Source: Kiritimatiellia bacterium
GTDB taxonomy: Bacteria; Verrucomicrobiota; Kiritimatiellia; RFP12; UBA1067
DNA length: 59,959 nt
Direction: 5' to 3'
Assembly: GCA_017542055.1 (NCBI GenBank)
Contig: JAFXXW010000001.1
Span: 1 to 59,959 of the forward strand
Shown here: positions 4,698 to 22,522 of the stretch, piece by piece
Layout of the letters: every line of letters starts with the position of its first letter
Position numbering within the stretch: the stretch's first letter is position 1
Program-made: the position numbers and the translations under genes
Notes under the pieces: model-generated
The model's database searches: none
What the model was told of the DNA's origin: nothing
What the model saw: only the letters and a program-made list of their open reading frames with translations

Positions 4698-4757
4698 TCA
4701 TTGAAAATTGAGTTTGGTTTTAGTCACGTGAAAACGCATCATCATCCGCGTATTCAT
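4698..4757 (-). other. repeat-encoded leader ORF (MNTRMM family, 19 aa)
   Basis: The leader MNTRMMMRFHVTKTKLNFQ has GGAGG upstream of its ATG. It ends in TGA just before the AAAGGAG used by the downstream gene at 4683. An identical leader precedes the truncated paralogue at 15223, so leader and gene were duplicated together. Confidence 0.6.
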
Positions 4758-4788
4758 TTCGATTCCTCCGATATCATGGCTTGCATCT

Positions 4789-5211
4789 TCAATGACAATC
4801 TATTAAGGTTACGATTAAGCGATAGGCGGCATAGACAGCGCCACCAACAGCAACGCCTATGACAAGTAGCGACCGCGCAATCTCCGCGCAAACGGACAGT
4901 TTGGAAATCGCTTTCCATTGATAACGGTCCCTCCAACTGCTGTTGCCTTCAAGATATTCAAGCAACGCATCTTCCGCCTCGCGTCGCGAAACAAGCCTGT
5001 CGCAGCGATATGCCTTGCCGCCTTTCCCTTCTTGATAGCAAAGTCTGAAATTGTCCGGCGGATTCACAAACGACACATGTATAAAAGCATCCGCATCGTG
5101 CGCTTGCCGCAACAACAAGTTTGTGCCTCGCTTCTTGTCGTCAGACATAAATTCGCGCAATAAGCTCGCCGTTGCATCTTGCTCTAGCGTTCTCGATGTT
5201 TTGACTCTCAT
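4789..5211 (-). CDS. hypothetical protein with C-terminal membrane helix
   Basis: This 140-residue protein has a soluble N-terminal domain of ~105 residues and one C-terminal membrane helix (RSLLVIGVAVGGAVYAAYRLIVTLI). The soluble part resembles the N-terminus of the 400-residue protein at 6792-7994. Shared landmarks are RE(F/L)-DD/ND-(K/A)RRG, a Y-(Q/R)-(E/D)GK-G motif, CDRLVS/CSRRVS and a closing W-(D/R)-W/WE. The two form a cassette family with different C-termini. The start is fixed by the leader ORF at 5208-5267, whose TGA overlaps this ATG. Function unknown. Confidence 0.7.
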   Translation of the reverse strand: MRVKTSRTLEQDATASLLREFMSDDKKRGTNLLLRQAHDADAFIHVSFVNPPDNFRLCYQEGKGGKAYRCDRLVSRREAEDALLEYLEGNSSWRDRYQWKAISKLSVCAEIARSLLVIGVAVGGAVYAAYRLIVTLIDCH

Positions 5212-5267
5212 GCTCCCGCTCCTTTCGTCTTGTCCGCGACGGCCCGCATAAACATCCGCGTAGTCAT
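5208..5267 (-). other. repeat-encoded leader ORF (MTTRMF variant, 19 aa)
   Basis: The leader reads MTTRMFMRAVA then DKTKGAGA. Its TGA overlaps the downstream ATG (ATGA at 5211-5208). The GAAAGGAGCGGG before the junction lies inside the leader and serves as ribosome binding site for the next gene. Its start lies 4 nt after the preceding lipoprotein's stop. Confidence 0.65.
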
Positions 5268-5271
5268 TTCG

Positions 5272-5859
5272 TCAGTTCCTTTCATTGCGCAACTCACCTG
5301 TCAACGCTTTTGTAGTCACTTCTTTGACTGCAATTTCACAGAAGTCACGACTGCCGCATCTAGCAAGCGGGCCAGCATCCCAGTACCGGTGCTCGAACCA
5401 GCCGGGAATCGGCAGAAACCCAGTTGGCAACACCGAAACCAATCCATATCCATTAATGTCAACGCCTATTCCCATGTCACCTTCCGGGAAACCAAGTTCA
5501 ATCGTGAAGTGCTGTGATGTCTTCACATACATCGGCAATATCGTCAATGTTGCGAAGCTGGGAATTCTCGACCAAAGCGGACTGTCGCTCGTTTCAGGCT
5601 CTTGCTTTACCGCAACCTTGACTATTGGAAGCGCGTCGTCACCACTAGATTTTGGCAATCGTCTAATGGCATATAGTGCGACCATTTCATAATAGCCACA
5701 ACTGGAAGGTTCAATCAGCCTATAGTACTCACTTTGCGTATTGCCGGAAACCTTTAGCGACGTTACGCTGTAATTGTATCCGGCATTTACGCACCCTGCC
5801 AAGCACCCCGCCATCGCCGCTCCCGCTACGGCCCGCGCAAACATCATCCGCGTATTCAT
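5272..5859 (-). CDS. lipoprotein, unknown function
   Basis: The protein has 195 residues. The signal peptide MNTRMMFARAVAGAAMAG ends in the lipobox CLAGC, so the mature protein should be a lipid-anchored envelope protein with Cys near residue 23. The mature part is predicted beta-rich and contains KQEPETSDSPLW and a Gly/Tyr-rich stretch. Here the array's MNTRMMFARAVA peptide is fused in frame as a real signal peptide, whereas upstream of most neighbours it is a separate ORF. The RBS AAAGGAACGAACCC precedes ATG 5859. No named family is recognised. Confidence 0.75.
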   Translation of the reverse strand: MNTRMMFARAVAGAAMAGCLAGCVNAGYNYSVTSLKVSGNTQSEYYRLIEPSSCGYYEMVALYAIRRLPKSSGDDALPIVKVAVKQEPETSDSPLWSRIPSFATLTILPMYVKTSQHFTIELGFPEGDMGIGVDINGYGLVSVLPTGFLPIPGWFEHRYWDAGPLARCGSRDFCEIAVKEVTTKALTGELRNERN

Positions 5860-5877
5860 GGGTTCGTTCCTTTAGTT

Positions 5878-6654
5878 TTACCTCTCCTCTTTCGCGCGAG
5901 GGATACAGCAACCTTCAACAGCGCTGATAGTCAGGACGCGTTCTTCGTTGTCCCACGTCCATCTGCAACCCAAACTGGAGCAGAGCAAATAGATTAGCGA
6001 TTCTAGCCGTATATCGCGCGCCTCAAAAACTGGTGCAGGGGTCTGCGAAATATCGCCGCCTTCCATCGCATTCTTGTATTCGCGTATGATGCGCAATCTT
6101 CCTTTTCCATCGTGTCCCTCCGGACAAGAGCAATTCATGCATTGCTCGAGATAGTCAATTGCATCGTCAAGCGTTGCGGGCGGTCGTATCTTGAATAAGG
6201 GGACAACTATCTCATGCAGTAAATCTTTCTCCTGCGCAAAGCAACGAGAATCATAGCAAGCGACCATTTTCCCCTCAATTGGTGGGCGAAATTTATCTTT
6301 GTCCCGAATCAGCGAGCTCAAATGCATCGCATACATTCGCTGAAGCCTTGCGAACGCTCGCAAATCCTCGTCAAGCAACGAATACTTGTCGTCCAGCTTT
6401 TTGCGCAACCACTTAATCTGCTCATCCATCGGCATAGTCGTGCCACCAGGATAAATAGAATCCTCCAAACAAGCTATTTCTGCCGCATTTGTCAGTACGA
6501 CATGAAACAAAGCCTCTGCCGAGGAAATCCGAAACTTGCCGCATGTGTTATTATAACCCGCAAGGTCGTCTTTAATTAAATCGTTCTCGGGTAACCAGCC
6601 AAACGCCGTCGCGACCATTGCCGCGAGCCCCACCGCCATCATCATTTTCTTCAT
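5878..6654 (-). CDS. secreted hypothetical protein with possible secretin/TonB-short (STN)-like C-terminal motif
   Basis: The protein has 258 residues with a signal peptide (MKKMMMAVGLAAMVATAFG). The middle is helical with several Cys (CMNCSCPEG). The C-terminal ~40 residues (FEARDIRLESLIYLLCSSLGCRWTW, then a beta strand ERVLTISAV) resemble the short strand-helix unit of STN/secretin N-domains. That similarity is pattern-based and uncertain. The start ATG at 6654 overlaps the TGA of a 40-residue leader ORF of the MKPFAR family. The stop at 5878 lies 18 nt before the lipoprotein gene, whose RBS is in the gap. Confidence 0.7.
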   Translation of the reverse strand: MKKMMMAVGLAAMVATAFGWLPENDLIKDDLAGYNNTCGKFRISSAEALFHVVLTNAAEIACLEDSIYPGGTTMPMDEQIKWLRKKLDDKYSLLDEDLRAFARLQRMYAMHLSSLIRDKDKFRPPIEGKMVACYDSRCFAQEKDLLHEIVVPLFKIRPPATLDDAIDYLEQCMNCSCPEGHDGKGRLRIIREYKNAMEGGDISQTPAPVFEARDIRLESLIYLLCSSLGCRWTWDNEERVLTISAVEGCCIPRAKEER

Positions 6655-6773
6655 CGCCGTTTTCCTTTCATTGACAATTGGTTATTGGCATTGGATATTT
6701 GCACATTTTCACATTTCCCTCTCCCCCTACGCAGAGCTGCGGAGGACAAGTTGATTCGTGCAAATGGTTTCAT
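6651..6773 (-). other. repeat-encoded leader ORF (MKPFAR family, 40 aa)
   Basis: The leader begins MKPFARINLSSAALRRGRGK, runs through the CCAAT-type spacer repeat, and ends in TGA overlapping the next ATG (ATGA at 6654-6651). The N-terminus matches the signal peptide start of the lipocalin at 22332. AAAGGAGCAACCC precedes its ATG. Confidence 0.6.
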
Positions 6774-6791
6774 GGGTTGCTCCTTTCGGTT

Positions 6792-7994
6792 TCATTTCAG
6801 TGGGATGCGGTAGGATGATGAGACGACTAGGCCGCTCTTGAACACCACCGTGGCGCGGAAATAGTATCTGAAGGCAGTATGACAGTCTTTTGCGATTCGC
6901 GGCATTTCCAGCGTCACGCTGCCGGACGCGATCTCCAGCGAATGCGTAAACTTCTTTTCATCGTTAATATCTCCCGGTTGAGCGCCAACAATCCCGTGTC
7001 TTGCCTCGCAAGCCGCACATGCCGCCGTCGCAAGTGCAACGCTCTTTACCTCTTCCGCGTCGCCTTTGAAGCGGTATTCAAATGTAGCGCGTTCGCCCTC
7101 TTTCAGCAACCCACCCACAAGCCGCACCTCGTAGCTTGGCCGCAGATGTTTCCATAGAAGGCGGAAGAAATACACTGTCATCGCAACGCCAATGAGCGGG
7201 AAGACCACGCCTATAACAAGAATCGCATCGAATCCCTTTTCGGAATAGGCACGCACGGCATCTACAAACTTCGGAGCAAGGCCATAAAACGCGCCAGCAT
7301 CCCAGCCTATGCACCAAATCGCCATGAAGACAAGGCCATTGGGCAACATACGCCGCAGTCTTATTCCATCCATCGGTATCGACCGCTCATGAGCCTCCCG
7401 CGTCTTGCCGCGTGTCTTGAGCCATTTCACAAGCTGCATCACAGGGCCACCGATAAAGACGCAAGCGAAGAGCGCAAAGAATCCCGCATATATCCAATCG
7501 CCCTTGTCCGCATTCGGACGCAACGCCGTCTTAATCGCATCGTAAAGATTCAAGGAGATGAGTGGCACACCAATAGCGATGGCGATTGCCGCAGCCACAT
7601 AGCACAAAACCTTTTCGGCTGGCGGCATCCCGGCCGTCGGGGAAAATGTCCAACCGCTCGTACCGCCCCGCTCCAACTCCCAATCAAAGCAACTGCGCCA
7701 CTCGCCGCGCCCGGCCAGTTCATCGAGAAAGACGCGCTCCACCTCGTCCGTGCTAACGCGGCGCGAGCAGTGGTAGAGATAGCCGTTCTTGCCATCGCGG
7801 TATTCGAGGTCGAAAAGTCCGTCGCTTTTGCCGCCCACTTCGTCATAGTCGCAGGCGATCTGCACGAAGCGTGAGTCGTCCGCGTCGTCCGACATGATCA
7901 TGAACTCGCCGCGCCGCGCGTCATTCCGCACCAGCTCGCGCACAAGCTCTTCGGTGGCGACCCGCTCGCCCATCTTCTCCGCCTCAATCTTCAT
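6792..7994 (-). CDS. multi-pass membrane protein with soluble N-terminal cassette domain
   Basis: The protein has 400 residues. Residues 1-~110 form a soluble domain related to 4789-5211. Then come about four membrane helices (VLCYVAAAIAIAIGVPLI, WIYAGFFALFACVFIGG, GLVFMAIWCIGW, AILVIGVVFPLIGVAMTVYFF). The ~130-residue C-terminal region is beta-rich and begins YEVRLVGGLLKEGERATFEYRF. The C-terminal part looks like an extracytoplasmic beta-sandwich, but no family is recognised. ATG 7994 lies inside the end of the leader ORF 7984-8070. The preceding AAAGGAGAGCGGGAGC is the ribosome binding site. Confidence 0.75.
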   Translation of the reverse strand: MKIEAEKMGERVATEELVRELVRNDARRGEFMIMSDDADDSRFVQIACDYDEVGGKSDGLFDLEYRDGKNGYLYHCSRRVSTDEVERVFLDELAGRGEWRSCFDWELERGGTSGWTFSPTAGMPPAEKVLCYVAAAIAIAIGVPLISLNLYDAIKTALRPNADKGDWIYAGFFALFACVFIGGPVMQLVKWLKTRGKTREAHERSIPMDGIRLRRMLPNGLVFMAIWCIGWDAGAFYGLAPKFVDAVRAYSEKGFDAILVIGVVFPLIGVAMTVYFFRLLWKHLRPSYEVRLVGGLLKEGERATFEYRFKGDAEEVKSVALATAACAACEARHGIVGAQPGDINDEKKFTHSLEIASGSVTLEMPRIAKDCHTAFRYYFRATVVFKSGLVVSSSYRIPLK

Positions 7995-8070
7995 GCTCCC
8001 GCTCTCCTTTCTTAATCCTGTCTAAAAGCTTTCCCGCGACGGCCCGCGCAAACATCCTCCGCGTATTCAT
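7984..8070 (-). other. repeat-encoded leader ORF (MNTRRM variant, 28 aa)
   Basis: The leader reads MNTRRMFARAVAGKLLDRI then KKGEREHED. Its ATG overlaps the TGA of the upstream ATPase gene (ATGA at 8070-8067). It ends 11 nt inside the next gene, so both sides can be coupled. LDRIKK comes from the GACAGGATTAAG spacer repeat. Confidence 0.6.
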
Positions 8071-9404
8071 ACGGATCCCTTTCGCAAGAAGTCTTCATAT
8101 TCGCCAATGAAGTAAAGCGGCAGGATGCGAACGGCATCATCAATTAGACCAAAGTTCTCTTCGGAGGTTCGGATGGCAAGCTTCAGGTTCTTTTCCTCCA
8201 TAAGAATGCGCAGACTCTTCATGGAACCATTGACGCCGGATTTAACCTCGATCGGCAGCACATTGTCGCCGAACTGGACGACATAATCTACCTCGGCATT
8301 GGAATCTTTCGCCTCCCGATGCCAATAAAAGAGGCGGTTTTCGGCGAACGCCGAGCCCGCCTTTTTGAGTTCCAGCCCCGTGAACATCTCCGCCAGCTTG
8401 CCGCGATTGACGAACTTCCCCGGCGGCTCGTTCACCCATTCCGGCACGTTCAAGCCGCTTTCGCGCAGATAAAGCCCCGTATCGAGCAACATGAACTTCT
8501 GGCTTTTGGGATTGAGGTCCCCGCCCAACGGAACGCCACTGGCGTTGCAGCAATCAGTGCGTATTGTCAACTTGGCGCGTTCCAACAAATCGGTGGCGTT
8601 TTTCGACTGGACGTAACTGAGACCCAAAAGCGCGTCCGAATAGACGAACTTTTCGCAAGTCTGGCGCACGACCGATGTGAGCGCGTGCCGTATCACATCC
8701 GGACTCAGCCTCGTCTTGTATTTGCCGAAGTCTTCCTTGAGCGAGACGAGAATATCGTCCTGCTCCCGTTGCGCCGCGAGGAAGCTCCCGGTTTCGACAT
8801 AGCGCTCGACAGCGGCCGGCATGCCGCCGACGATGAGAAACGACTTGAGAATCTCTAGCAGCTTGCCATGCGCAATCCCGGGTAGAGGCTTGTCGAATGC
8901 CGCGCCCCTCGCCCGCTCCAGAGCCATATCCGTCCCAAGTGCCCCGGCGAATTCCGCGTATGAGAGCGGATACACGAACATGTTGCGTATCCGCCCCACC
9001 CCGAAGTCGCTCAAATCGTCGAACACGAACTCCAAGAGCGACCCCGCCGCAATCACATGGAGACTTTGCATATCCTCGTAGAAAAACCGCAAAGCGGAAA
9101 TGGCGCGGGGGCACTCCTGTATCTCGTCAAGGAAAATAAGCGTGCGCCCAGGGACGACAGGCTTGTCAAACTGGTATTCAATGAGCGATACGATGGTCTT
9201 TACGTCCAGATCGCCAGCAAAAGCCTCGCGTATCTTGCGGTTCTTCTCGAAATTGACCTCGATATAATAATCAAAGCCTTCCGCAAGATGCCGCACTGCT
9301 GTCGTTTTGCCAGTCTGCCTGGCACCTCTGAGCAGCAAAGGCTTGTGGCTAGAATCGTTTTTCCAGTCCTCAAGGGCAGAATCTATCTTTCTTTTAATGT
9401 ACAT
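8067..9404 (-). CDS. AAA ATPase with DUF4143-type C-terminal domain
   Basis: The protein has 445 residues, normal for this widespread family. The N-terminal AAA_14-type ATPase has the Walker A motif GARQTGKTT and the Walker B motif LIFLDEIQECP. The C-terminal DUF4143 region contains a nuclease-like core (NAEVDYVVQFGDNVLPIEVKSG). It is a cytoplasmic nucleoside-triphosphatase of unclear role, often found in accessory or defence-rich regions. It has its own promoter at 9434-9462 and lacks the leader repeat on its 5' side. This suggests independent insertion into the array, although its stop overlaps the next leader's start. Confidence 0.9.
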   Translation of the reverse strand: MYIKRKIDSALEDWKNDSSHKPLLLRGARQTGKTTAVRHLAEGFDYYIEVNFEKNRKIREAFAGDLDVKTIVSLIEYQFDKPVVPGRTLIFLDEIQECPRAISALRFFYEDMQSLHVIAAGSLLEFVFDDLSDFGVGRIRNMFVYPLSYAEFAGALGTDMALERARGAAFDKPLPGIAHGKLLEILKSFLIVGGMPAAVERYVETGSFLAAQREQDDILVSLKEDFGKYKTRLSPDVIRHALTSVVRQTCEKFVYSDALLGLSYVQSKNATDLLERAKLTIRTDCCNASGVPLGGDLNPKSQKFMLLDTGLYLRESGLNVPEWVNEPPGKFVNRGKLAEMFTGLELKKAGSAFAENRLFYWHREAKDSNAEVDYVVQFGDNVLPIEVKSGVNGSMKSLRILMEEKNLKLAIRTSEENFGLIDDAVRILPLYFIGEYEDFLRKGSV

Positions 9405-9602: not shown

Positions 9603-9689
9603 TCAAGCACCAACCAACCGCCCTATATCGTTTTCCAACCCATTCGACACGCCCGCGACGGCCCGCGCAAACATCTTTCGAGTATTCAT
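9603..9689 (-). other. orphan repeat-encoded leader ORF (28 aa)
   Basis: The leader begins MNTRKMFARAVAGVSNGLEN and ends in TGA. Unlike the others it has no gene directly after it; the next start is the ATPase ATG 198 nt on, beyond a separate promoter. It probably marks where a cassette was lost or the ATPase inserted. The remaining sequence between 9490 and 9602 shows nothing recognisable. Confidence 0.5.
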
Positions 9690-9693: not shown

Positions 9694-10056
9694 TCAGTTC
9701 CTATCCTTTGTTGATTGGTCCAAACGCCGTAGTTTTCGCAGGAAGTAAGAAACCATACAAATAACAACAGCGGCGATAAGGCTATAGAGAAACATACCTA
9801 AAAAGATGACGAATAATCCAAGCAGAATATTCCCTTGCTGTTCGCCCATGACATTAAATATAAATCTCCGTGCGAGCATCAAATACGGTTCGTAAACCAA
9901 TACGAACGCGTTTGCAACCACCTTCTCGACATATCTAGGGAAAAGCGGTGCCGCAGCAAAAACAACAACCTGTATGCACAACAACACAGTGGTAATAGCG
10001 ACGATTTTACTCGCCGCTCCCGCGACGGCCCGCGCAAACATCATCTGCGTATTCAT
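9694..10056 (-). CDS. small two-helix membrane protein carrying the leader as its N-terminus
   Basis: The 120-residue protein begins MNTQMMFARAVAGAASKIVA, so the leader peptide is fused in frame. A first membrane helix (IVAITTVLLCIQVVVFAAAP) and a second (ILLGLFVIFLGMFLYSLIAAVVICMVSYF) flank a ~40-residue loop. Its ATG overlaps the TGA of the upstream gene (ATGA at 10056-10053), so translation is coupled. Function unknown. Confidence 0.65.
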   Translation of the reverse strand: MNTQMMFARAVAGAASKIVAITTVLLCIQVVVFAAAPLFPRYVEKVVANAFVLVYEPYLMLARRFIFNVMGEQQGNILLGLFVIFLGMFLYSLIAAVVICMVSYFLRKLRRLDQSTKDRN

Positions 10057-10532
10057 TTCGATTCCTCCCTTTCACGCGCCACCCGCCATGAACGTTTGTA
10101 CACATAGACAACCAACGACACAATTAATATGGCATAAGGAATTGGAGAAACCGTATCCACCTCTCTTGAAAACTTGCCTTTCCCTGCGATTGCGCTCTTG
10201 CATACTTTCTCGTCACTATGGGCCTCTTTCCACCAATTCGCCCCAATCCTGAACCCCGAATAATGTAATTCGTAGAAGACGCGTCCACTCTTATCTTTCA
10301 ACAAAAGTGGATCCAATTTACTACTCTTTCCCCACTTTGATATGTGTGTTACGCTCCCAATCAAAGATGACTCCATCGACTTCACCTCTCGTTTGTAAAA
10401 CCACCATGTTCGCCGACACAGGCGGACATAGCCGTCCTGCACCGTCAATGTGTCGCTCCGTTCGAAGAGGAACAGGAACGCCAACGCCGCCAACAGCAGC
10501 CATTTCATTTCCTTTTGCCATTTCAGCTTCAT
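10053..10532 (-). CDS. membrane protein, unknown function
   Basis: The protein has 159 residues. The N-terminus MKLKWQKEMKWLLLAALAFL is nearly identical to that of the lipoprotein at 18510-19055, but here it continues as a signal anchor without a lipobox. A soluble central region (DGYVRLCRRTWWFYKREV...) and a second membrane helix near the C-terminus (YAILIVSLVVYVYKRSW) follow. ATG 10532 overlaps the TGA of the leader 10529-10591. The shared N-terminus with an otherwise unrelated gene supports exchange of 5' modules. Confidence 0.65.
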   Translation of the reverse strand: MKLKWQKEMKWLLLAALAFLFLFERSDTLTVQDGYVRLCRRTWWFYKREVKSMESSLIGSVTHISKWGKSSKLDPLLLKDKSGRVFYELHYSGFRIGANWWKEAHSDEKVCKSAIAGKGKFSREVDTVSPIPYAILIVSLVVYVYKRSWRVAREREESK

Positions 10533-10591
10533 GCTCCCGCTCCTTTCGACTTGTCCGCGACGGCCAGCGCAAACATCATCCGCGTATTCAT
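10529..10591 (-). other. repeat-encoded leader ORF (MNTRMMF family, 20 aa)
   Basis: The leader reads MNTRMMFALAVA then DKSKGAGA. Its TGA overlaps ATG 10532. This is the canonical 63-nt module, also found at 11014-11076, 12433-12495 and 17731-17793. Confidence 0.7.
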
Positions 10592-10606: not shown

Positions 10607-11017
10607 CTATAAATTCCCATTGCAAGCACGGCTTACAAACACGGCAACGACGACAACGACGACAACGATAATAAATGCCAAATACAAAAGACAGCCAACC
10701 TTGAATGCTTTTGCAAAATGCTTTCCTGCCAATTTCATGTCGCCGCGCTCCAGCGCATTGCGGACTGCTTGCGTGCCAAACAGGGACAACTGATATCCGC
10801 CCCTTGCGAACCCAAAACGTGCAAAAGCACTATTCTGACCATCTACCCCTGTCTCCACTTTCTTCCGCGCCAATTCACGCTCCAGTCTGCGGAACTTTTC
10901 TTCCGCCGTTTCCTCTGCGGCGAATCTTTCGCCCACTACTTCCGCCCCGCAGAAGGGACAGTTGAAGTGGTCTTCGCCGTTATCATACAGCTCTTTCCCG
11001 CAAGTCGGACACTTCAT
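10607..11017 (-). CDS. zinc-ribbon membrane-anchored protein
   Basis: The 136-residue protein starts with a four-Cys zinc ribbon (MKCPTCGKEL and NCPFCGAEV). A charged, probably helical region follows (EEKFRRLERELARKK), and the C-terminus is a strongly hydrophobic helix (LLYLAFIIVVVVVVVAVFV). It is likely cytoplasmic and anchored by its tail. ATG 11017 overlaps the leader's TGA. Similar zinc ribbons occur in the array at 12511, 13823, 19683 and 20029. Confidence 0.7.
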   Translation of the reverse strand: MKCPTCGKELYDNGEDHFNCPFCGAEVVGERFAAEETAEEKFRRLERELARKKVETGVDGQNSAFARFGFARGGYQLSLFGTQAVRNALERGDMKLAGKHFAKAFKVGCLLYLAFIIVVVVVVVAVFVSRACNGNL

Positions 11018-11076
11018 GCTCCCGCTCCTTTCGACTTGTCCGCGACGGCACGCACAAATATCATCCGCGTATTCAT
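11014..11076 (-). other. repeat-encoded leader ORF, coupled on both sides (20 aa)
   Basis: The leader reads MNTRMIFVRAVA then DKSKGAGA. Its ATG overlaps the TGA of the upstream gene (ATGA at 11076-11073) and its TGA overlaps the ATG of the downstream gene (ATGA at 11017-11014). It bridges the two genes with no untranslated base. Confidence 0.75.
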
Positions 11077-11618
11077 TTTGTCAGATCCTTTTGGTTTCGA
11101 TTACAGCTACGGCTATTAAACACTTCTTCCGCCGTCATTGCGGCAGGGTAATCGTCATATATAGGTCTCGTATTATACCACTCCAAGTCTATCGTCCGAA
11201 ACAGTTCACCACCAGACAAGACGCGGGCTTGCCCGCTGGAAAAATCCAACCGCCCGCCGTGTCGCCATGGCCACGTTTCCAAATCAACATAGTAAACCAT
11301 CCATTTGCCATCCATGTCGCGAACATACAGCATGACATTATACGCTTTGCCTTTACAGACCTGAAACAGAACGTATTCACGCCCTTCTGGCGTCGTGCCA
11401 TGATCAAGTATCCTCTCATGCCGTCCGCTGTGCTGATCCACATCAAAGGCCACAAGCGCACATGACAAGAAAATCCATATCGTCCCTGCCACTATGAGCC
11501 AACGCCGTTTCCTTTTTATTCCCACCCAAAGAAGCCAGGCGGGAATTACAAAAAGCAAAGACAACGCGGCACTCCGTAGAAGCCAGCACAGCAATACATC
11601 TGCCCACGGCATATTCAT
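11073..11618 (-). CDS. membrane protein with extracytoplasmic C-terminal domain, unknown
   Basis: The protein has 181 residues. Two N-terminal membrane helices (LLRSAALSLLFVIPAWLLWVGI and WLIVAGTIWIFLSCALVAF) precede a ~115-residue soluble domain with a Trp/Tyr-rich beta pattern (KAYNVMLYVRDMDGKWMVYYVDLETWPW). ATG 11618 overlaps the TGA of a 60-residue leader. Its own TGA overlaps the start of the next leader. No family is recognised. Confidence 0.65.
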   Translation of the reverse strand: MNMPWADVLLCWLLRSAALSLLFVIPAWLLWVGIKRKRRWLIVAGTIWIFLSCALVAFDVDQHSGRHERILDHGTTPEGREYVLFQVCKGKAYNVMLYVRDMDGKWMVYYVDLETWPWRHGGRLDFSSGQARVLSGGELFRTIDLEWYNTRPIYDDYPAAMTAEEVFNSRSCNRNQKDLTK

Positions 11619-11797
11619 TTTATAACTCCTTTTTTGTCAGCTATCGCCGCTCGGCGTGTTCGCGTCCCCATGGGTCGCGAACACGCCAAGCGAAGCGAGT
11701 GCCGAGTCCCCAATTGGTAATTGGATTTGGTATTGGCAACATTTCCACATTGGCAACATTCTCCCCCGGCCCGCGCAAACATCATCCGCGTATTCAT
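11615..11797 (-). other. extended repeat-encoded leader ORF (60 aa)
   Basis: The leader begins MNTRMMFARAGGECCQCGNV. About 110 nt of spacer repeat and a GAACACGCCGAGCG-type inverted repeat are inserted after codon 10, yet the frame stays open. Its TGA still overlaps the next ATG (ATGA at 11618-11615). AAAAAAGGAGTTATAAA precedes the junction. Confidence 0.6.
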
Positions 11798-11818: not shown

Positions 11819-12436
11819 TCAGTTTCTTGCGGCAAATCTGCGCACAAGTTTGATGATTTCCATCCCAGCCACACAAAGGCTACCTAATACGATGAGCAGA
11901 TAGAAAAGTCGCAACCAACGTTCCCGCCATATATTCCTTTTGCGCGGCAGCGCTTTCTCGCGCCTCTCGCATGCGACTTTATCAAGGAACATCGCCACTT
12001 CGCCAACGGTTTTGAATGTGCCAATTGAATCTACTTCTTCAGGTGTCAGCTTACCATATCTCTGCTCAGCCGCCATCCAGAATTCGACTCCGCCAAAGTC
12101 GTCCACCGCATCATTTTCCAAGAGAGACACGACAGATGGCCAGGCATCGTCAGCTGCAATATGCAGAAACAATTCGCCGCGCTCCGGCAAACCATAATCT
12201 GCGTATTGTTGCGTGCAGATTGAGGCAACTGAGGACACTCGCCCGTCTTTAGGCATGTTCATCCTTTTACGCAGTTCAAGTTGCTCGATGGCAATCTTGT
12301 TGCGACGCACATACGCCCGATATGCCTTGCCGGGCCACACCCAGAAATGCTTGATTGCGACATCGACAAGCGGCGCGACTTCTCCCGCATTCGTCTTGCG
12401 CTGTAATTCAAGCAAAGACTCAAAATCCTTACTCAT
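11819..12436 (-). CDS. tail-anchored protein with an ACP-like helical domain lacking the carrier serine
   Basis: The protein has 205 residues. Residues ~98-155 (SLLENDAVDDFGGVEFWMAA, then EQRYGKLTPEEVDSIGTFKTVGEVAMFLDK) follow the helix pattern of acyl carrier proteins, including the helix II/III spacing and the closing TVGEV..FL. The DSL serine that carries phosphopantetheine is not present. A C-terminal membrane helix (LFYLLIVLGSLCVAGMEII) and a basic tail (RRFAARN) end the protein. The ACP resemblance is my inference. ATG 12436 overlaps the leader's TGA. A 43-bp copy of this gene's 3' end recurs at 14253-14295. Confidence 0.65.
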   Translation of the reverse strand: MSKDFESLLELQRKTNAGEVAPLVDVAIKHFWVWPGKAYRAYVRRNKIAIEQLELRKRMNMPKDGRVSSVASICTQQYADYGLPERGELFLHIAADDAWPSVVSLLENDAVDDFGGVEFWMAAEQRYGKLTPEEVDSIGTFKTVGEVAMFLDKVACERREKALPRKRNIWRERWLRLFYLLIVLGSLCVAGMEIIKLVRRFAARN

Positions 12437-12495
12437 TCTCCCGCTCCTTTCATTTTATCCACGACGCCCCGCGCAAACATTATCCGCGTATTCAT
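12433..12495 (-). other. repeat-encoded leader ORF (MNTRIMF variant, 20 aa)
   Basis: The leader reads MNTRIMFARGVV then DKMKGAGE. Its TGA overlaps ATG 12436. It starts 15 nt after the upstream gene's stop, with GGAGGCCGCGAA before its ATG. Confidence 0.65.
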
Positions 12496-12510: not shown

Positions 12511-13734
12511 CTACGCATCCCAGTAGTCCTTCTTTTGAACTGGCCGTGCGATTTCCAATCCGCTGCACGCAAAGGCCATAGGCATCAGAAGAAATATTCC
12601 CAACATAACAGTAGACAAGTTTGGCAGCCTTTCTCTGTCGAATGTAGCACCGGGACGGCGCCTTATAGCTTCCATAAGCCCTATCTGATATCCACTGACC
12701 TCCCTGCCATAGCCATACAGCCGCTTCAACACTTGCTTGCCCGCCCCTTGTATCTCCAATTCGTGTGAAGCGTGCTTGCCTCTTCCCATCACAAGTTCCA
12801 CGTAAGTTATATCCTTTACCGGAATCTCGGTCCTTTCAACCTTGCGGCCCCACCATCGCGACTCGGTTATGACGAGCTTGCCGCCTGAAACCACGATCCT
12901 CTCACTCTCGGAAAACGCATACGCAAAGCACAAAAGCACAGCCATCAAAAGCACTCCGAACGCAACTGGATGCTTTATCCCCAAGCCCCTCCTGCCGCCA
13001 TCGACCTTATTGAGAGAAAAACCTGCGGCGCGACGAGCAATGCATGCACAGAGATACTCTTGGACAGGCGCAGAAAGATATCGTCCGAATACTGCATTTG
13101 ACCTGTTCTTGGACTCCACGCATATTTCCCGGACAGGCGTACCTTGGTTGATAAGCCCTGTCTCTGGATGTTCATCGACAAATGCATAGGTTTCGGATGT
13201 AAGCGCAAATTCCGTCTCCCGACGAAAACGCCAAAGTCCGACCGTGTAGCATCCGTGCTCTGCAAAAAGACGCAAGACACGCTTTCCGAAAAGTTCGAAC
13301 ACAAGCCCTGCGACTCCCGACAGGAAAAATGGCGCGACAAGGATCGCCCATATCCAGTCACCATGCATCACGCAACTTACCATGCCGCATCCCGAGATCC
13401 CACACAGCCACAGGCAAAGAAGTATCATCGCAAGATTGCGCACAGGACATACAACCAAATCCGACCAAGCCCCTCCGCTTTCGGCGACAGCCGGTCTCAC
13501 CTCAATGCCTGCCGGTGCCTCGCCAAGATCGCGTTTCGCCGAATCGCGCTGGATTTGCCGCTTGAGGGAATACCGCTTACCGCATGACCGACAGCGCATC
13601 ATGTCCGTGCGAATGTCAATGTCTTCAAATGCTATCTCCGCACCACAATCTGGACAGTGATACACCTTTCGCCTTGCAGTAGGCCACCTGACGCCCCGCG
13701 CAAGCATCATCGGCAATTCTATTTTGTTTTTCAT
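12511..13734 (-). CDS. zinc-ribbon membrane protein with PH-like C-terminal region
   Basis: The protein has 407 residues. The N-terminus KNKIELPMMLARGVR is a degenerate in-frame copy of the array leader. It is followed by a four-Cys zinc ribbon (YHCPDCGAEI and MRCRSCGKRY). Two membrane helices (VRNLAMILLCLWLCGISGCGMVSCV and WIWAILVAPFFLSGVAGLVF) precede a cytoplasmic-looking stretch. Another helix (HPVAFGVLLMAVLLCFAYAF) leads to a beta-rich region (RIVVSGGKLVITESRWWGRK...ITYVEL) that resembles bacterial PH-like domains. ATG 13734 follows the leader's TGA by 2 nt. A GTG 6 nt upstream is an alternative start. Confidence 0.65.
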   Translation of the reverse strand: MKNKIELPMMLARGVRWPTARRKVYHCPDCGAEIAFEDIDIRTDMMRCRSCGKRYSLKRQIQRDSAKRDLGEAPAGIEVRPAVAESGGAWSDLVVCPVRNLAMILLCLWLCGISGCGMVSCVMHGDWIWAILVAPFFLSGVAGLVFELFGKRVLRLFAEHGCYTVGLWRFRRETEFALTSETYAFVDEHPETGLINQGTPVREICVESKNRSNAVFGRYLSAPVQEYLCACIARRAAGFSLNKVDGGRRGLGIKHPVAFGVLLMAVLLCFAYAFSESERIVVSGGKLVITESRWWGRKVERTEIPVKDITYVELVMGRGKHASHELEIQGAGKQVLKRLYGYGREVSGYQIGLMEAIRRRPGATFDRERLPNLSTVMLGIFLLMPMAFACSGLEIARPVQKKDYWDA

Positions 13735-15237: not shown

Positions 15238-15297
15238 TCATTGAAAATTGAGTTTGGTTTTAGTCACGTGAAAACGCATCATCATCCGCGTATTCAT
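15238..15297 (-). other. repeat-encoded leader ORF (identical to 4698-4757)
   Basis: The leader is MNTRMMMRFHVTKTKLNFQ with a TGA just before AAAGGAGACAGAC. It is preceded by AAAGGAACGAACTC. Confidence 0.6.
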
Positions 15298-15321: not shown

Positions 15322-16581
15322 TCACTCAACTTTGCTTCCGTCAAGATTGACGACATACTTGCAATTGCGTCCATACGACTGTTTGCCGGGCTGCTTGTCG
15401 CCGTTGAAGGTTCTGTCAGCGCCGACAGTCCACACAATGCCGCGCACCGCGTCATATTTCAGCGCCGCGCCATGGTCGAATGGATCGGTTGGCACAGACG
15501 GCAGAAACTCCGGCACGAGCGCATCAAGCGACTCCGGACGATGCCCAGTCTTGCGCCTGTACAATTCCGCCGCGACAACAACCTTGGTAGCGAATAGCTC
15601 GAATTCTCCGCGAGCGACTTTCAGGGCAAAGCCATCTTTCCAAGCCGGCATGATACTTGATACCATCGTCCGCCCGCCATAATTGGGAGTAAGCTTGCCT
15701 AACGGGCTTGCTGTGGCCGCATTTATCTCTTTTTCGAAATTCTCCCATGCATCCTTGTCGTAATCGTGCAAAAGCAATTCTCTTGCTTTTGCGAACAACC
15801 CGGCGCCTAGCGACCTTGTGCGATCTGACTGGTATGAGTATCGCCGCAAGATTCCGTGCCTCCCGGCGCTATAAACCTCGGCTTCAAAGATTCGAAGCGC
15901 CTTGGTAAACCAATATGTAAATTCATTGTTGACGGCTTGCCGAATGCCCGCGCGTCGCGTCGCTGAATCGCTTGCGGAAAGCAAATCGAGTAACAGCCGC
16001 AATTCGTCGTCTGATGCCTTTCCCGATGCGACAATCTGCGCGGCAAGATGCGTAGCCATGCTACATGCTCCATCGGCGACAAGCCAGCAGACAAGCGATT
16101 CCGCGTCAGACTGTATTGTGCGGTTCAGCGCAAGGAAATCGCGCACACCATCAACCGTCGCGCCGATTTCGCCGCGCGCGATATGCCGCTCGGCCTTTGC
16201 ATTGTAAATCCTTATCATCTTGGCGAAGGCTTCAACTGGGAACAGGCAAAATCCACCTTCGCGCCGCGCCGTCTGATCATACCACTTCGTGCGATGTGTC
16301 GCGTTCTGAAAGATGGCAATCGCTTCGGCATTCTCTGCAACAACCGCATCGATTTCGTCGGGCGAAAGCTTTTTCCAATCCATTGGCTCAACCCATCGCT
16401 TGACGGCGTTCGTCGCCGCGATAAACCCGCACCATGCGTTGTCTTCATCCGCAGGAATCTCCGAAGTTGTCGTGAACGCCGAAACATCCGGTGGATCGGC
16501 GTCTATCGAGCTGCACCCGACACATAACACTCCAATACCCGCCACCACCGCAAGCGCGGCAAATACGATTTTCTTCTTCAT
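15322..16581 (-). CDS. large lipoprotein with C-terminal pseudopilin-like segment
   Basis: The protein has 419 residues. The signal peptide MKKKIVFAALAVVAGIGV ends in the lipobox LCVGC. The mature protein is mainly alpha-helical. The C-terminal ~100 residues (ALYRRKTGHRPESLDALVPE, then FLPSVPTDPFDHGAALKYD and GIVWTVGADRTFNGD) match the type II secretion G-like segment often found in PVC-group proteins, where PxDPF and a final beta hairpin are typical. An envelope-anchored role is likely, function unknown. ATG 16581 overlaps the leader TGA. Confidence 0.75.
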   Translation of the reverse strand: MKKKIVFAALAVVAGIGVLCVGCSSIDADPPDVSAFTTTSEIPADEDNAWCGFIAATNAVKRWVEPMDWKKLSPDEIDAVVAENAEAIAIFQNATHRTKWYDQTARREGGFCLFPVEAFAKMIRIYNAKAERHIARGEIGATVDGVRDFLALNRTIQSDAESLVCWLVADGACSMATHLAAQIVASGKASDDELRLLLDLLSASDSATRRAGIRQAVNNEFTYWFTKALRIFEAEVYSAGRHGILRRYSYQSDRTRSLGAGLFAKARELLLHDYDKDAWENFEKEINAATASPLGKLTPNYGGRTMVSSIMPAWKDGFALKVARGEFELFATKVVVAAELYRRKTGHRPESLDALVPEFLPSVPTDPFDHGAALKYDAVRGIVWTVGADRTFNGDKQPGKQSYGRNCKYVVNLDGSKVE

Positions 16582-16637
16582 GCTCCCGCTCCTTTCGACT
16601 TGTCCGCGACGACCCGCACAAACAGTTTTGTTTTCAT
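16578..16637 (-). other. repeat-encoded leader ORF with a divergent start (19 aa)
   Basis: The leader reads MKTKLFVRVVA then DKSKGAGA. Its N-terminus has diverged while the C-terminal half and the ATGA overlap with 16581 are kept. Its ATG overlaps the TGA of the small ORF at 16634. Confidence 0.65.
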
Positions 16638-16947: not shown

Positions 16948-17127
16948 TCATTGGAAATTGGTATTGGTAATGGCAACATTCTTGACAGCCTTAGCGCAGA
17001 GCGCGGCGGCGGTTCCACATCTTGACCTCCAACTTGTCCGCCGTAGCCTTGGCGAAGGCGGAAGCCTCGGCGAAGGAGGCTGGCAACATTCTCCCCCGAC
17101 TCGCGCAAACATCATCCGCGTATTCAT
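16948..17127 (-). other. extended repeat-encoded leader ORF (59 aa)
   Basis: The leader begins MNTRMMFARVGGECCQ and continues through a degenerate CGAAGGCGG/CGCCAAGG-type repeat and the CCAAT-type spacer repeat with an open frame. Its TGA overlaps an ATG at 16951 that is followed by AAAGGAGCGAGAG. It fills the otherwise gene-free stretch 16918-17149. Confidence 0.5.
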
Positions 17128-17149: not shown

Positions 17150-17734
17150 TCATTCCTCGGACGAGCGCAAGAGCATTGCGCAACGCAAAAAGTCAAACAA
17201 CTCTTCCGCGCCCTTCTGCGTTCCGCATTGGCAGATTCGCTCCGACCTGCGGCTTGCCTTGTTTCTCACCGACACCACCCATTCGTCGCACGACGACTCG
17301 CGCGTCCCGCGCGCTCCCATGGGCCTTGGCGCATCGATTGCACCGCTCGTAATGTGGACGAGTTGCGGATTGTCGATTTCTCCAAGATTCCAACGCCACT
17401 TCCTCAATGTCATACCAAAGAGAGTGGACTTGCTGGAAAGGTTCGCGCCGTCGGCAACCCATGTGTCGATGCCGAAGAACGCATAGAGGACAATCACACC
17501 AAAGAGAAGCCCAGCAGGGACAAATGCCACGCACAAATAAAATAGCACACGGTCGTCCCCTGTGAAAAGCAGACGAAGCGACTGTCCCTGCTCGACCAGT
17601 TCGCTGCACAGCATATACATGATCGCACATCCGAAGGAGAAAAGACCAATCGGTATCATCGCAATCGCCACCCTGACAATGCATGGTATTGTCGCCAAAT
17701 TGTCGTACTGCCGTTGAACAAGTTGCATCTTCAT
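17150..17734 (-). CDS. membrane protein, unknown function
   Basis: The protein has 194 residues. Two membrane helices (CIVRVAIAMIPIGLFSFGCAIMYML and VLFYLCVAFVPAGLLFGVIVLYAFFGI) precede a soluble C-terminal domain of ~105 residues (TLFGMTLRKWRWNLGEIDNP...DEWVVSVRNK...GAEELFDFL). That domain looks like a small beta-rich PH-like fold, but this is not certain. ATG 17734 overlaps the leader TGA. The bases beyond its stop toward 17127 hold only the RBS of the next leader. Confidence 0.65.
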   Translation of the reverse strand: MKMQLVQRQYDNLATIPCIVRVAIAMIPIGLFSFGCAIMYMLCSELVEQGQSLRLLFTGDDRVLFYLCVAFVPAGLLFGVIVLYAFFGIDTWVADGANLSSKSTLFGMTLRKWRWNLGEIDNPQLVHITSGAIDAPRPMGARGTRESSCDEWVVSVRNKASRRSERICQCGTQKGAEELFDFLRCAMLLRSSEE

Positions 17735-17793
17735 GCTCCCGCTCCTTGCGTTTTGTCCGCGCCGATCCGCGCAAACATCATCAGCGTATTCAT
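17731..17793 (-). other. repeat-encoded leader ORF, coupled on both sides (20 aa)
   Basis: The leader reads MNTLMMFARIGA then DKTQGAGA. Its ATG overlaps the lipoprotein's TGA (ATGA at 17793-17790) and its TGA overlaps ATG 17734. Confidence 0.7.
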
Positions 17794-18446
17794 TTCGATT
17801 CCTCGCCATCCGTAATCTTGTCCGCCGCCTTGGTTATCTTGTAGCATTCATACTCGCCGGTGTCGAGATCCTTTTGACAGAGGAACACCGAATCGGGGAA
17901 GCGCGGCGAAACAACTGCCCGCCAACGCCTCCCTGGAACATGCTCCATCTCCCATACGCAAGTAAACGACTGGTCGAAGATGTGTATAACCGATTCGTTG
18001 CGATAGGTCGCATTCGGCTTCACCACCAACAGCCGCTCGTTCTCCCCGCGCCCGAATGCCGCCGCGCATTGCAGGATGATGCTATGCCCCGCATCGTGGC
18101 GGCAGAGGATTTGCGAGCGGAATACGGCGTCCGCAATCTGGATAGGCGAGCCCTTGCGCCCCAACTTCGCGACCGCCACGCAAACCATGTTCGTGCCAAA
18201 GCGAATCGGCGTGGACTCGTACCAAACCGCCGCATTCTCCGCCGCGCGATCTCGATCTTTGTTGATGTTCCACACCCTGTCATCCGTGCCGCCACTAACC
18301 TTTGCAAGCCTCGCAATCTCGGCAGTCGTCGCGCCGTCGCACGGCACAAACGCAAACTCCTCAATGTTGGGTCTGCTCGCACAACCTGCCAAGCCGAGCA
18401 TCGCCGCTCCCGCGACGGCCCGCGCAATCATCATCCGCGTATTCAT
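17790..18446 (-). CDS. lipoprotein, unknown function
   Basis: The protein has 218 residues. The signal peptide MNTRMMIARAVAGAAMLG ends in the lipobox LAGC, making this the clearest example of the leader peptide acting as a genuine signal sequence. The mature part has paired Cys (SQILCRHDAG, ILQCAAAF) and strands such as TCVWEMEHVPG and RWRAVVSPRF. No family is recognised. ATG 18446 has only a weak upstream AAGGAAC. Confidence 0.7.
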   Translation of the reverse strand: MNTRMMIARAVAGAAMLGLAGCASRPNIEEFAFVPCDGATTAEIARLAKVSGGTDDRVWNINKDRDRAAENAAVWYESTPIRFGTNMVCVAVAKLGRKGSPIQIADAVFRSQILCRHDAGHSIILQCAAAFGRGENERLLVVKPNATYRNESVIHIFDQSFTCVWEMEHVPGRRWRAVVSPRFPDSVFLCQKDLDTGEYECYKITKAADKITDGEESK

Positions 18447-19068: not shown

Positions 19069-19188
19069 TCATTGGTAATTGGATTTGGACTTGGCAACAT
19101 TTCCATATTGGCAACATTTCCCTCTCCCCCTACGCAGAGCGGCGGAGGACAAGGCGGAGGACAAGTTGATTCGTGCAAAGGGGTTCAT
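19069..19188 (-). other. repeat-encoded leader ORF (MNPFAR family, 39 aa)
   Basis: The leader begins MNPFARINLSSALSSAALRR, runs through the spacer repeat GTTGCCAA, and ends in TGA 13 nt before ATG 19055. An internal 15-bp duplication repeats SSAL. Confidence 0.55.
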
Positions 19189-19573: not shown

Positions 19574-19666
19574 TTATTGGATATTGGATATTTGCACATT
19601 TTCACATTTCCCTCTCCCCCTACGCAGAGCGGCGGAGGAAAAGTTGATTCGTGCAAAGTGTTTCAT
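19574..19666 (-). other. repeat-encoded leader ORF (MKHFAR family, 30 aa)
   Basis: The leader begins MKHFARINFSSAALRRGRGK and ends in TAA within the CCAATATCCAATAACC spacer repeat, 20 nt before ATG 19553. Confidence 0.5.
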
Positions 19667-21201: not shown

Positions 21202-21812
21202 TTGGCTGATTTCCTTTCTCTGCACAAGTATAGCCCCGAGGAGCAGATCGCGCCGAGGGTGTCGCAGAGGATGTCCTTCTGCGCGTCCCATACGTCGCCC
21301 TGCGAACCGAGGAACGCCGCCCCCGCCTCTCCTCCGTCGACAACCGCGTACCACCACTCGACGAGCTCCCATATCCCGGCCATTGCGACAGTAGACATGA
21401 CGGCAAAGAACGCAGCAAAGCCGGCGGACTTCGCCCAGCCCTTGCGGAAGAAGAGCTCGGCGAGCGGGAACGCAAACCATCCGACCGCAAAGTGCGCGAT
21501 GCGGTCGTAGGGATTGCGCACGAGCCCAAGCGGCTTCATCAGCCATTCCATCGGGACATGCTCGAACGTGTAGTGCGCGCCGACGAGCTGAAGGACCGTC
21601 CATACGAAGAAGCAGAGGTAGGCTGGCGTGGAGAAGCGGAACTTCCTGCGCGTCAGGAGAAGAATAGCCCACAGCCCGACCGCCCACACCATCTCGACGC
21701 ACCACACCGTCCTGTCGGCGGGGTAGATGCCCAGCACGACCGCCACGCACACAAGCGCGGCGACCATCCACAAATCCCGATAACTGTACAATATTGAATT
21801 GCCCATTTGCAT
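21198..21812 (-). CDS. yjdF: YjdF-like (DUF2238) integral membrane protein
   Basis: The protein has 204 residues and about six membrane helices. The family signature is clear: NPYDRIAHFAVGWFAFPLAE, WELVEWWYAVVDG, then FLGSQGDVWDAQKDILCDTL. The function of this inner-membrane family is unknown. The ATG at 21812 follows the lipocalin stop by 7 nt and an ATG at 21806 is an alternative. Neither has a strong ribosome binding site, so translation may depend on the upstream gene. Confidence 0.85.
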   Translation of the reverse strand: MQMGNSILYSYRDLWMVAALVCVAVVLGIYPADRTVWCVEMVWAVGLWAILLLTRRKFRFSTPAYLCFFVWTVLQLVGAHYTFEHVPMEWLMKPLGLVRNPYDRIAHFAVGWFAFPLAELFFRKGWAKSAGFAAFFAVMSTVAMAGIWELVEWWYAVVDGGEAGAAFLGSQGDVWDAQKDILCDTLGAICSSGLYLCRERKSAK

Positions 21813-21819
21813 TACAAGT

Positions 21820-22332
21820 TCATTTCTGCTCTACCCAAATCAACTTGCCCGTATCGTAGCCACGACGTTTGGCTTCGGATAGAAGTTCGGACTTCGCGGT
21901 TTCAGACAGTCCAGACGTGCGCGAGAGAATCCAGAGATAGTCCGCACTGCCGCTACCGACGAGTGCGCATGTGTAGTCCTTGTCGATCAGCATCACGCGG
22001 TAGTCGGCGTAGAACGGGCCGAAGAACGAGACGCGCAGGAGTCCGGGCGTGTCTGTCGTCTTGCCGTTCCCGATCGCCGTCTTCGGCTTGCTGTCCTTGA
22101 TGCCGGAGTTCACGACCTTGATCGTACCGTCCGCGTTCAGCGTATAGTTGGCCTTCGCCTGCTCCACGCCGCGCTCGAAGCTGTGGTCGAACCGTGCGAT
22201 CTCGTACCACTCGCCGAGATAGCGGTTCAGGTCAAGCGCCGCCACGGGCGTATTGTCAACTTTCAAAGTGCTCGCGCACCCCGCCGCTAGGGCGAGGGAT
22301 GTGACGAGGATCATTCGTGCAAATGGTTTCAT
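21820..22332 (-). CDS. blc: outer-membrane lipocalin lipoprotein (Blc-like)
   Basis: The protein has 170 residues, typical of bacterial lipocalins. The signal peptide MKPFARMILVTSLALAAGC has a lipobox. The lipocalin signature YLGEWYEIARFDHSFERG is followed by the barrel strands (NADGTIKVVNSG, PGLLRVSFFGPFYADYRV, DYLWILSRTSGLSE). It is expected to bind fatty acids or lysophospholipids at the outer membrane. This fits with the phosphodiesterase gene upstream. Its signal peptide start is the likely source of the MKPFAR leader repeats. AAAGGAGCAACCC precedes ATG 22332. Confidence 0.9.
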   Translation of the reverse strand: MKPFARMILVTSLALAAGCASTLKVDNTPVAALDLNRYLGEWYEIARFDHSFERGVEQAKANYTLNADGTIKVVNSGIKDSKPKTAIGNGKTTDTPGLLRVSFFGPFYADYRVMLIDKDYTCALVGSGSADYLWILSRTSGLSETAKSELLSEAKRRGYDTGKLIWVEQK

Positions 22333-22459
22333 GGGTTGCTCCTTTCTTGTTGAATGTGGAAATGTGCAAATATCCAACAGCCAGCAGCCAATATCCAATT
22401 TGCCCCGCCATCATTGAATAATGGATACTGGATATTGGATACTGGATATTTGCACATTT
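22333..22459. repeat. spacer-repeat tract (GGATATTGGATACT units)
   Basis: The gap between leader and lipocalin holds imperfect repeats of GGATACT/GGATATT and GTGCAAAT. The same units appear at 6672-6710 and 19566-19612 and next to leaders at 601-650, 11711-11760, 16956-16985 and 19072-19120. No gene is seen here. Confidence 0.6.
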
Positions 22460-22522
22460 TCACATTTCCCTCTCCTCTCGCGCGAGGGATGAGACGAGGA
22501 TCATTCGTGCAAATGGTTTCAT
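22460..22522 (-). other. repeat-encoded leader ORF (MKPFARM family, 20 aa)
   Basis: The leader reads MKPFARMILVSSLAREEREM and is a truncated copy of the lipocalin signal peptide. Its ATG overlaps the TGA of the GDPD gene (ATGA at 22522-22519). Confidence 0.6.

Follow-up and report, generated by a model that had tools for sequence, protein, structure and literature searches.

Bacteria usually acquire gene cassettes with the help of an integrase and its sites. In integrons, ORF-11/17/18 of attI1 and the short open reading frames (ORFs) of attC sites act by termination-reinitiation, bringing ribosomes to the cassette that follows (PMC8876359). Mycobacterial interspersed repetitive units (MIRUs) are short intergenic repeats whose small ORF overlaps the following gene by 4 nt and is thereby coupled to it, and they are described as self-inserting at start codons (PMC12548453). 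The rAID arrays of gut Bacteroidales consist of co-oriented short genes with conserved intergenic motifs, their defining features being a tyrosine recombinase and orphan immunity genes (PMC12247911). The vpma/vsp genes of mycoplasmas share a conserved 5' untranslated region and signal peptide and differ in the rest, with recombination taking place in the 5' region; Xer1 inverts the DNA, and one gene is expressed from one promoter (PMC2268961). In the esaG/tipC immunity arrays, neighbouring genes recombine through short blocks of sequence that they share, 5' ends among them (PMC9484751), and in the bicistronic design (BCD) of synthetic biology a short leader cistron delivers ribosomes to a chosen gene (PMC12548453, PMC5995908). 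Here, we analysed a stretch of 59,959 bases (the window), which is the complete contig C27 of a 1.35-Mb draft genome (88.7% complete) from the Kiritimatiellae. It carries an array of about 20 co-directional genes, on the minus strand from position 22522 down to 688, that are joined by copies of a short 5' module, at which whole cassettes are exchanged between genomes.

The 37-nt core of the module (ATGAATACGCGGATGATGTTTGCGCGGGCCGTCGCGG, MNTRMMFARAVAG) is present in 17 copies from 4757 to 18446, and the array extends beyond 4698, with an 18th copy in a leader at 688, up to the contig end, where it is cut at base 1. A diverged core copy also lies within the 5' end of the gene at 13734. The second module (AAAGGAGCAACCCATGAAACCATTTGCACGAAT, MKPFAR) occurs in five copies, at 6773, 19188, 19666, 22332 and 22522. 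The core copies exceed chance expectation: a model of the core reached E-values down to 4.6e-13 in this genome, and the reversed pattern gave no match. The genes that follow the modules are small and mostly without annotation (4698-22522). All copies and their reading frames were verified in the sequence, as expected from the original prediction, made from the letters of this DNA, of a minus-strand repeat before many small genes. Both leader modules have FAR / TTTGC(A/G)CG(A/G) after the start in common, and they may share a single origin.

The nature of the module follows from the reading frames. The core copies at 5859 and 18446 open a lipoprotein signal peptide and continue in frame through the lipobox Cys (MNTRMMFARAVAGAAMLGLAGC); the copy at 10056 begins a small membrane protein, and the second module at 22332 begins a Blc-type lipocalin. 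Unrelated lipoproteins of other genomes have only their first 23-26 residues in common. Judged by these frames, the core encodes the beginning of a lipoprotein signal peptide and has two uses, forming the N-terminal end of a secreted protein in some places and a free leader ORF in others. The remaining core copies are followed by a linker carrying a second Shine-Dalgarno sequence (SD): type b is ACAAGTCGAAAGGAGCGGGAGC (DKSKGAGA), type c is one half of the palindromic GACAGGATTAACAGGATT element, and type d is the GGCAACATT palindrome element. In RGIG7794, the entire type-d palindrome lies between two core copies, with the frame open through to ATGA. The modules had all been predicted to be leaders, which does not hold for those at 5859, 10056 and 18446, the N-termini of full-length proteins. 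The ribosome binding site of the gene does lie within the leader as proposed, the SD AAAGGAGCGGGAGC being located there. Ten ATGA overlaps had been listed, and those at 5211, 6654, 10532, 11017, 11618, 12436, 14158, 16581 and 17734 were found; position 16882 forms no repeat junction, being either a Met codon within a weak ORF (16634-16951) or the end of another ORF, 12 codons long. The downstream genes are mutually unrelated in most cases, as had been stated, the exceptions being the paralogues 4789-5211 and 6792-7994 and the common 5' end of the genes at 10532 and 19055. These two otherwise different genes begin with a perfectly identical stretch of 75 nt (SD + MKLKWQKEMKWLLLAALAFL; 10473-10547 and 18996-19070), possibly a third signal-peptide module.

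The exchange of cassettes was followed by comparison with related genomes, every one of which is a draft metagenome-assembled genome (MAG). The ATPase cassette 8042-9693 (98.6% identity) and the lipoprotein cassette 17757-18460 (98.3%) lie next to each other on contig C344 of genome G009 but are separated by 8 kb here. G009 also has cassette 11767-12517, at 96.7% identity, and G056 has cassette 673-4778 (1331-aa gene plus leader), at 98.1%, in each case among different neighbours. The ends of the matching cassettes fall between -22 and +37 relative to the leader ATG. For housekeeping DNA (20 kb of the contig), identity is mostly only 64-82% with G009 and 64-80% with G056, the exception being a single block of ~165 nt at 96-97%; this argues that the cassettes, at 96.7-98.6%, moved recently. 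G000, G009 (roe deer) and RGIG7794 (water buffalo) share the cassette of the 218-aa lipoprotein at 99% identity; the three MAGs diverge at nt 31-40 of the following core into different linkers, after which come a 194-aa membrane protein, an ATPase and a 287-aa protein. Likewise, a cassette for a 151-aa protein (95.5%) shared by G050 and G058 ends at nt 38 of the next leader, whose core begins a 617-aa secreted protein in one genome and is a free leader in the other.

In the window, 9 of the 12 ends of homology segments fall in leaders, whose footprint is 6.6% (permutation p<5e-6; as homology segments overlap, this and the following p-values are guides). Across all arrays fetched, breakpoints were enriched 7.9-fold at the first core and 9.7-fold at the second module (control words, 0.5-1.9-fold), as well as 7.5- and 10-fold at two palindrome words (GACAGGATT, GGCAACATT). 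The loci were chosen for containing the module, and the gene starts of the same loci are therefore the relevant control: a breakpoint was carried by 81% of the leaders, counting those within homologous segments, versus 31% of repeat-free gene starts (odds ratio 9.6, p 9e-8). Near-identical cassettes with changed neighbours and a switch within the module are what the original prediction of a portable 5' module implied, and its suggestion that the repeat is a junction for cassette gain agrees with the place of the switch in these genome comparisons.

The array is composed of the following features.

608..688, minus: leader copy, frame-shifted core allele ATGAATACGCGGATGAGGGCAAGCGCGGG, 26 codons
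706..4701, minus: 1331-aa thioredoxin-like secreted protein (in cassette 673-4778)
4698..4757, minus: leader ORF MNTRMMMRFHVTKTKLNFQ, core 3 nt shorter, allele identical to 15238-15297
4789..5211, minus: 140-aa protein, no known family, paralogue of 6792-7994 (30% identity)
5208..5267, minus: leader MTTRMFMRAVADKTKGAGA, ATGA overlap at 5211
5272..5859, minus: lipoprotein, core (5823-5859) as signal peptide (MNTRMMFARAVAGAAMAGCLAGC)
5878..6654, minus: 258-aa secreted protein, no known family
6651..6773, minus: second-type leader MKPFARINLSSAALRRGRG..., ATGA overlap at 6654
6792..7994, minus: 400-aa membrane protein, no known family, paralogue of 4789-5211
7984..8070, minus: leader MNTRRMFARAVAGKLLDRIKKGEREHED, shortened type-c linker, overlaps next gene by 11 nt
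8067..9404, minus: AAA_14/DUF4143 ATPase (PADLOC PDC-S01; in cassette 8042-9693)
9603..9689, minus: leader MNTRKMFARAVAGVSNGLENDIGRLVGA, uncoupled to the ATPase (198-nt gap)
9694..10056, minus: 120-aa membrane protein, N-terminus formed by core (10020-10056)
10053..10532, minus: 159-aa protein, 75-nt 5' end with SD identical to gene 18510-19055
10529..10591, minus: leader MNTRMMFALAVADKSKGAGA, type b, ATGA overlap
10607..11017, minus: 136-aa zinc-ribbon membrane protein
11014..11076, minus: leader MNTRMIFVRAVADKSKGAGA, type b, ATGA overlap
11073..11618, minus: 181-aa membrane protein, no known family
11615..11797, minus: leader MNTRMMFARAGGECCQ..., type d, GGCAACATT palindrome, ATGA overlap
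11819..12436, minus: 205-aa protein (in cassette 11767-12517)
12433..12495, minus: leader MNTRIMFARGVVDKMKGAGE, ATGA overlap
12511..13734, minus: 407-aa zinc-ribbon membrane protein, diverged core copy (13690-13713) in N-terminus
13737..13826, minus: leader MNTRKTFARAVAGRFLDRINRIDRIKKGA, type c, half of GACAGGATT palindrome
13823..14158, minus: 111-aa zinc-ribbon membrane protein
14155..14250, minus: leader MNMRMMFAQVVAGRFLDRIYKIDRIKKGAGA, type c, ATGA overlap
15238..15297, minus: leader MNTRMMMRFHVTKTKLNFQ, within 134-nt perfect duplicate of 4624-4757
15322..16581, minus: 419-aa lipoprotein, orthologues 77-79% identical in G030/G035, upstream region different in G035
16578..16637, minus: leader MKTKLFVRVVADKSKGAGA, core 3 nt shorter, ATGA overlap
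16948..17127, minus: leader MNTRMMFARVGGECCQ..., type d, 59 aa
17150..17734, minus: 194-aa membrane protein, no known family
17731..17793, minus: leader MNTLMMFARIGADKTQGAGA, ATGA overlap at each end
17790..18446, minus: 218-aa lipoprotein, core as signal peptide, 99% identical in G009 and RGIG7794 with different next genes
19069..19188, minus: second-type leader MNPFARINLSSALSSAALRRGRGKCCQ...
19574..19666, minus: second-type leader MKHFARINFSSAALRRGRGKCENVQISNIQ
21820..22332, minus: lipocalin (Blc-like) lipoprotein, second module as signal peptide (MKPFARMILVTSLALAAGC)
22460..22522, minus: second-type leader MKPFARMILVSSLAREEREM, truncated copy of the lipocalin start

Most of the cassette proteins, among them small membrane proteins, lipoproteins and zinc ribbons, have no Pfam or PADLOC match. 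Recognisable proteins of the arrays are DUF4143 ATPases (four different ones), Fic, PD-(D/E)XK_3 and helix-turn-helix (HTH) proteins, hydrolases and Sel1 repeats. Classification as a defence island was rejected, with PADLOC/Pfam matches limited to the DUF4143 ATPases and a few Fic, PD-(D/E)XK and HTH proteins and most cassette proteins unmatched. Immunity families are absent from the Pfam/PADLOC matches, although most cassette proteins match nothing.

Several further repeats accompany the array. A perfect direct repeat of 134 nt (4624-4757 and 15164-15297) comprises the leader and the 5' end of the 1331-aa gene, its second copy belonging to a truncated pseudogene (14945-15241). Inside the truncated copy of the 1331-aa gene, a perfect 23-nt inverted repeat (CTGTGGCAATCAAGTCTGACCCT) flanks a 166-aa ORF at 14365-14963, which looks like a small inserted element; a similar end sequence was found in locus L073. 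Intergenic GACAGGATTAACAGGATT ... AATCCTGTCAATCCTGTAAATCCTGTC elements, which are palindromic, and GGCAACATT palindromes lie at 13760-13800 and 14170-14210 and in L054, L058, L061, L062 and other loci; these elements, which are REP- or MITE-like (repetitive extragenic palindromes or miniature inverted-repeat transposable elements), show strong enrichment at the breakpoints of cassettes. At 22353-22466, a second-type leader is adjoined by a palindrome of a third type (AATATCCAATATCC / TTTGCACATTTTCACATT), with 45-nt arms.

Within this genome, the first core is confined to this array, and the second module has one further copy, on contig C3. A profile search, proposed earlier as a check, established that the module recurs in related genomes: the sequence model of the first core (R1) matched 24 of 61 genomes of the genus and 27 of 115 genomes of the family (5 of 19 genera), frequently in clusters, and that of the second module (R2) matched 39 of 115 family genomes (7 of 19 genera). 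In an exact scan of 84,980 species, only a dozen contigs matched, nearly all labelled Kiritimatiellae or Verrucomicrobia, and several of them bear the names of ruminant foregut samples. A phage or virus origin of the module was rejected after IMG/VR returned no exact match. The same cassettes (93-99% protein identity) are also found on a 3.5-kb contig of RGIG7794 labelled Victivallales (L116), and either the label is wrong or the cassettes were transferred outside the Kiritimatiellae.

To assess the leader as a coding sequence, 96 distinct core copies were collected by nt 13-34 alone, such that a start codon was not required. An in-frame start was present in 92 of the 96, and all 96 remain open for at least 8 further codons. 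In free leaders, the start-codon bases were conserved in 193 of 198 cases (97.5%), compared with 516 of 594 (86.9%) for codons 2-4 (p 3.5e-6, with the limit that related copies do not count independently), and 57 of 66 free leaders are preceded by an SD-like motif. An exact ATGA overlap with the next gene was found for 26 of 65 leaders and a frame permitting it for 38 of 65; a hand count of distinct linker lengths put about 7 of 11 in the coupling frame (p ~0.04). On these sequence grounds, translation of the leader is favoured, and it may promote translation of the next gene. Frame-preserving indels were discarded as evidence of coding, with too few independent events and both +1 and -4 alleles in existence. 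In TTTGCGCGG, third codon positions are conserved as well, which suggests constraint or homogenisation at the DNA level.

Taken together, we consider that the module probably acts as the joint of an integrase-free accessory cassette pool in rumen Kiritimatiellae and that it may, in addition, serve as a translational adaptor. The module consists of an SD, a start codon and the first 12-13 codons of a lipoprotein signal peptide. A crossover within it or within the attached palindromic repeats, most likely by RecA-type or short-homology recombination, would replace the downstream DNA and retain the upstream gene tail, the SD and the leader start. If the incoming piece is in frame, a secreted protein would result, with the module as its signal peptide; alternatively, the incoming piece would be a linker with a second SD, the leader would end at or near the next start codon, often as ATGA, and ribosomes finishing the leader could then initiate the new gene. 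Since the core is read in one frame in both uses, the crossover would keep the SD and the start, and the new gene would remain reachable. More tentatively, and with less expectation of being right, we propose an integrase-free form of shuffling in which one module is joint, signal-peptide donor and leader cistron at once, every crossover within it yields a translatable gene, whether its product is secreted or not, and the gene pool is common to the bacteria of one habitat.

Several observations weigh against a functional adaptor at an exchange site. Constraint on the peptide is weak, with a ratio of non-synonymous to synonymous change (N/S) of ~0.68, compared with 0.52 in full genes. Most of the ATGA junctions go back to two linker alleles (59 and 92 nt). 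In G056, the leader of the 1331-aa gene carries ATA in place of ATG, and the leader before the orthologue of the gene at 13734 is frame-broken by a short deletion in G046, G006 and G030. Coupling may be dispensable, because the downstream SD is strong. Repeat-free gene ends are also often breakpoints (58%), and the comparison draws on draft metagenome assemblies only, with no strain series catching a swap in progress. The proposal of a translated, coupled leader therefore stands in part: the start codon is kept above its adjacent codons and is in frame in 92 of 96 copies, but the excess of ATGA is largely inherited. Of the checks suggested with it, the comparison of synonymous and non-synonymous change (N/S 0.68) yielded weak constraint, and that of ATGA conservation yielded 26 exact overlaps among 65 leaders, with one leader in a relative having lost its ATG and another its frame. 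As a whole, the original interpretation is upheld for the portable module and the cassette junction, and its translated leader is favoured rather than proven.

The alternative that survives best is that the leaders are passive remnants: in a lineage that is rich in repeats and exchanges much DNA, recombination by short homology would leave truncated gene starts between genes, dead signal-peptide ends without a selected role, and frame and ATGA would be by-products of copying. The core is plainly the start of a lipoprotein gene, non-coding palindromes (GACAGGATT, GGCAACATT) are as enriched for breakpoints as leaders, start or frame is lost in some leaders and N/S is just mildly below 1, all of which fit this account. 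However, the start and SD of free leaders are conserved about as in real genes and above the adjacent codons, 92 of the 96 copies have an in-frame start, and the length variants of the core include several 3-nt steps (with +1 and -4 as exceptions). We regard this explanation as rather unlikely.

A site-specific cassette system, with the core as the target of a recombinase in the manner of integrons or the vpma/vsp loci of mycoplasmas, would account for breakpoints restricted to a short conserved sequence and for the conservation of even third codon positions in TTTGCGCGG. Exchangeable cassettes bounded by a repeat are indeed present, as in an integron or a cluster of attC sites lacking an integron integrase (CALIN). 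Nevertheless, none of 59 genus genomes contained an integron integrase above the TIGR02249 cut-off, none of 17 modules carried the attC motif pair (RYYYAAC ... GTTRRRY; background, 0.65% of windows), and the single-stranded DNA hairpin fold of the modules was in no way unusual (z-scores -1.2 to +0.7). With integrase, motif and fold all negative, identity as an integron or CALIN was rejected. The two tyrosine recombinases of this genome are located on other contigs (C21 and C25), none being found on C27 beside the array, which is cut at the contig end at base 1; a serine resolvase was not found in this genome. Breakpoints occur in unrelated repeats too, and homology therefore fits better than a dedicated site, leaving a site-specific system improbable. 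Among known RNA elements, RNase P alone was detected in 30 kb, and counts of promoters or terminators per cassette were no higher than in shuffled sequences. At the contig end (58509-59942), a 477-aa ORF resembles a DDE integrase/transposase, with no Pfam match at 0.001.

Still less credible is a mobile repeat of the MIRU type, which would insert on its own at start codons while its coupled ORF kept the host gene translated. It has the same architecture, with a short repeat ORF bearing ATGA at one or both ends and palindromic elements within some copies, but no collinear pair of loci with and without the repeat was found as evidence of insertion into an otherwise unchanged locus: orthologues with different leaders have different upstream genes, and the core also runs on in frame as the N-terminus of real proteins. 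An assembly artefact through metagenome misjoins at short repeats can practically be dismissed: all genomes are draft MAGs and many array contigs end near modules, but the same cassettes turn up across projects and hosts that are independent of each other (roe deer, water buffalo, goat, cow, UBA), and the junction modules carry different alleles in the two arrangements and so did not amount to a single shared k-mer.

Each single feature of this array has a precedent, and we know of no system that combines them all. Among the literature searched, no paper described arrays of this kind in Kiritimatiellae. The original claim that no described system has such a layout was too strong, since MIRUs and the short ORFs of integron attI1/attC sites are partial precedents (PMC12548453, PMC8876359). 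As in MIRUs, a repeat-encoded short ORF lies at -4 nt to the next gene (exactly so in 26 of 65 leaders); unlike in MIRUs as described, whole cassettes change at the repeat, which doubles as a signal-peptide start. The array shares co-oriented exchangeable cassettes, repeat joints and short ORFs with integron arrays, but differs from them in that no integron integrase, attC core-site pair or fold was found and in that the site lies at the 5' end of genes and can be coding. Like rAID arrays, it comes from gut bacteria and consists of short genes in one orientation with conserved motifs between them, whereas no tyrosine recombinase was found beside the array on this contig and no immunity family among the Pfam/PADLOC matches, which leave most of the proteins unmatched. 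The conserved 5' region and signal peptide (first 23-26 aa) on unrelated lipoproteins recall vpma/vsp, but no recombinase was found on the contig, all array genes share one strand and several species draw on the pool. The esaG/tipC arrays are made up of paralogues of one family, whereas most genes here are unrelated. In this lineage, a 5' coding module seems to serve cassette gain by homology alone, with the reading frame keeping the products translatable. If so, this would account for the way in which arrays of unrelated membrane proteins and lipoproteins are built up in a little-studied rumen lineage, and nature would have its own equivalent of the bicistronic leaders of synthetic biology: BCD was engineered for reliable expression, whereas the likeness seen here comes from signs in the sequence alone, namely SD, start, frame and ATGA.

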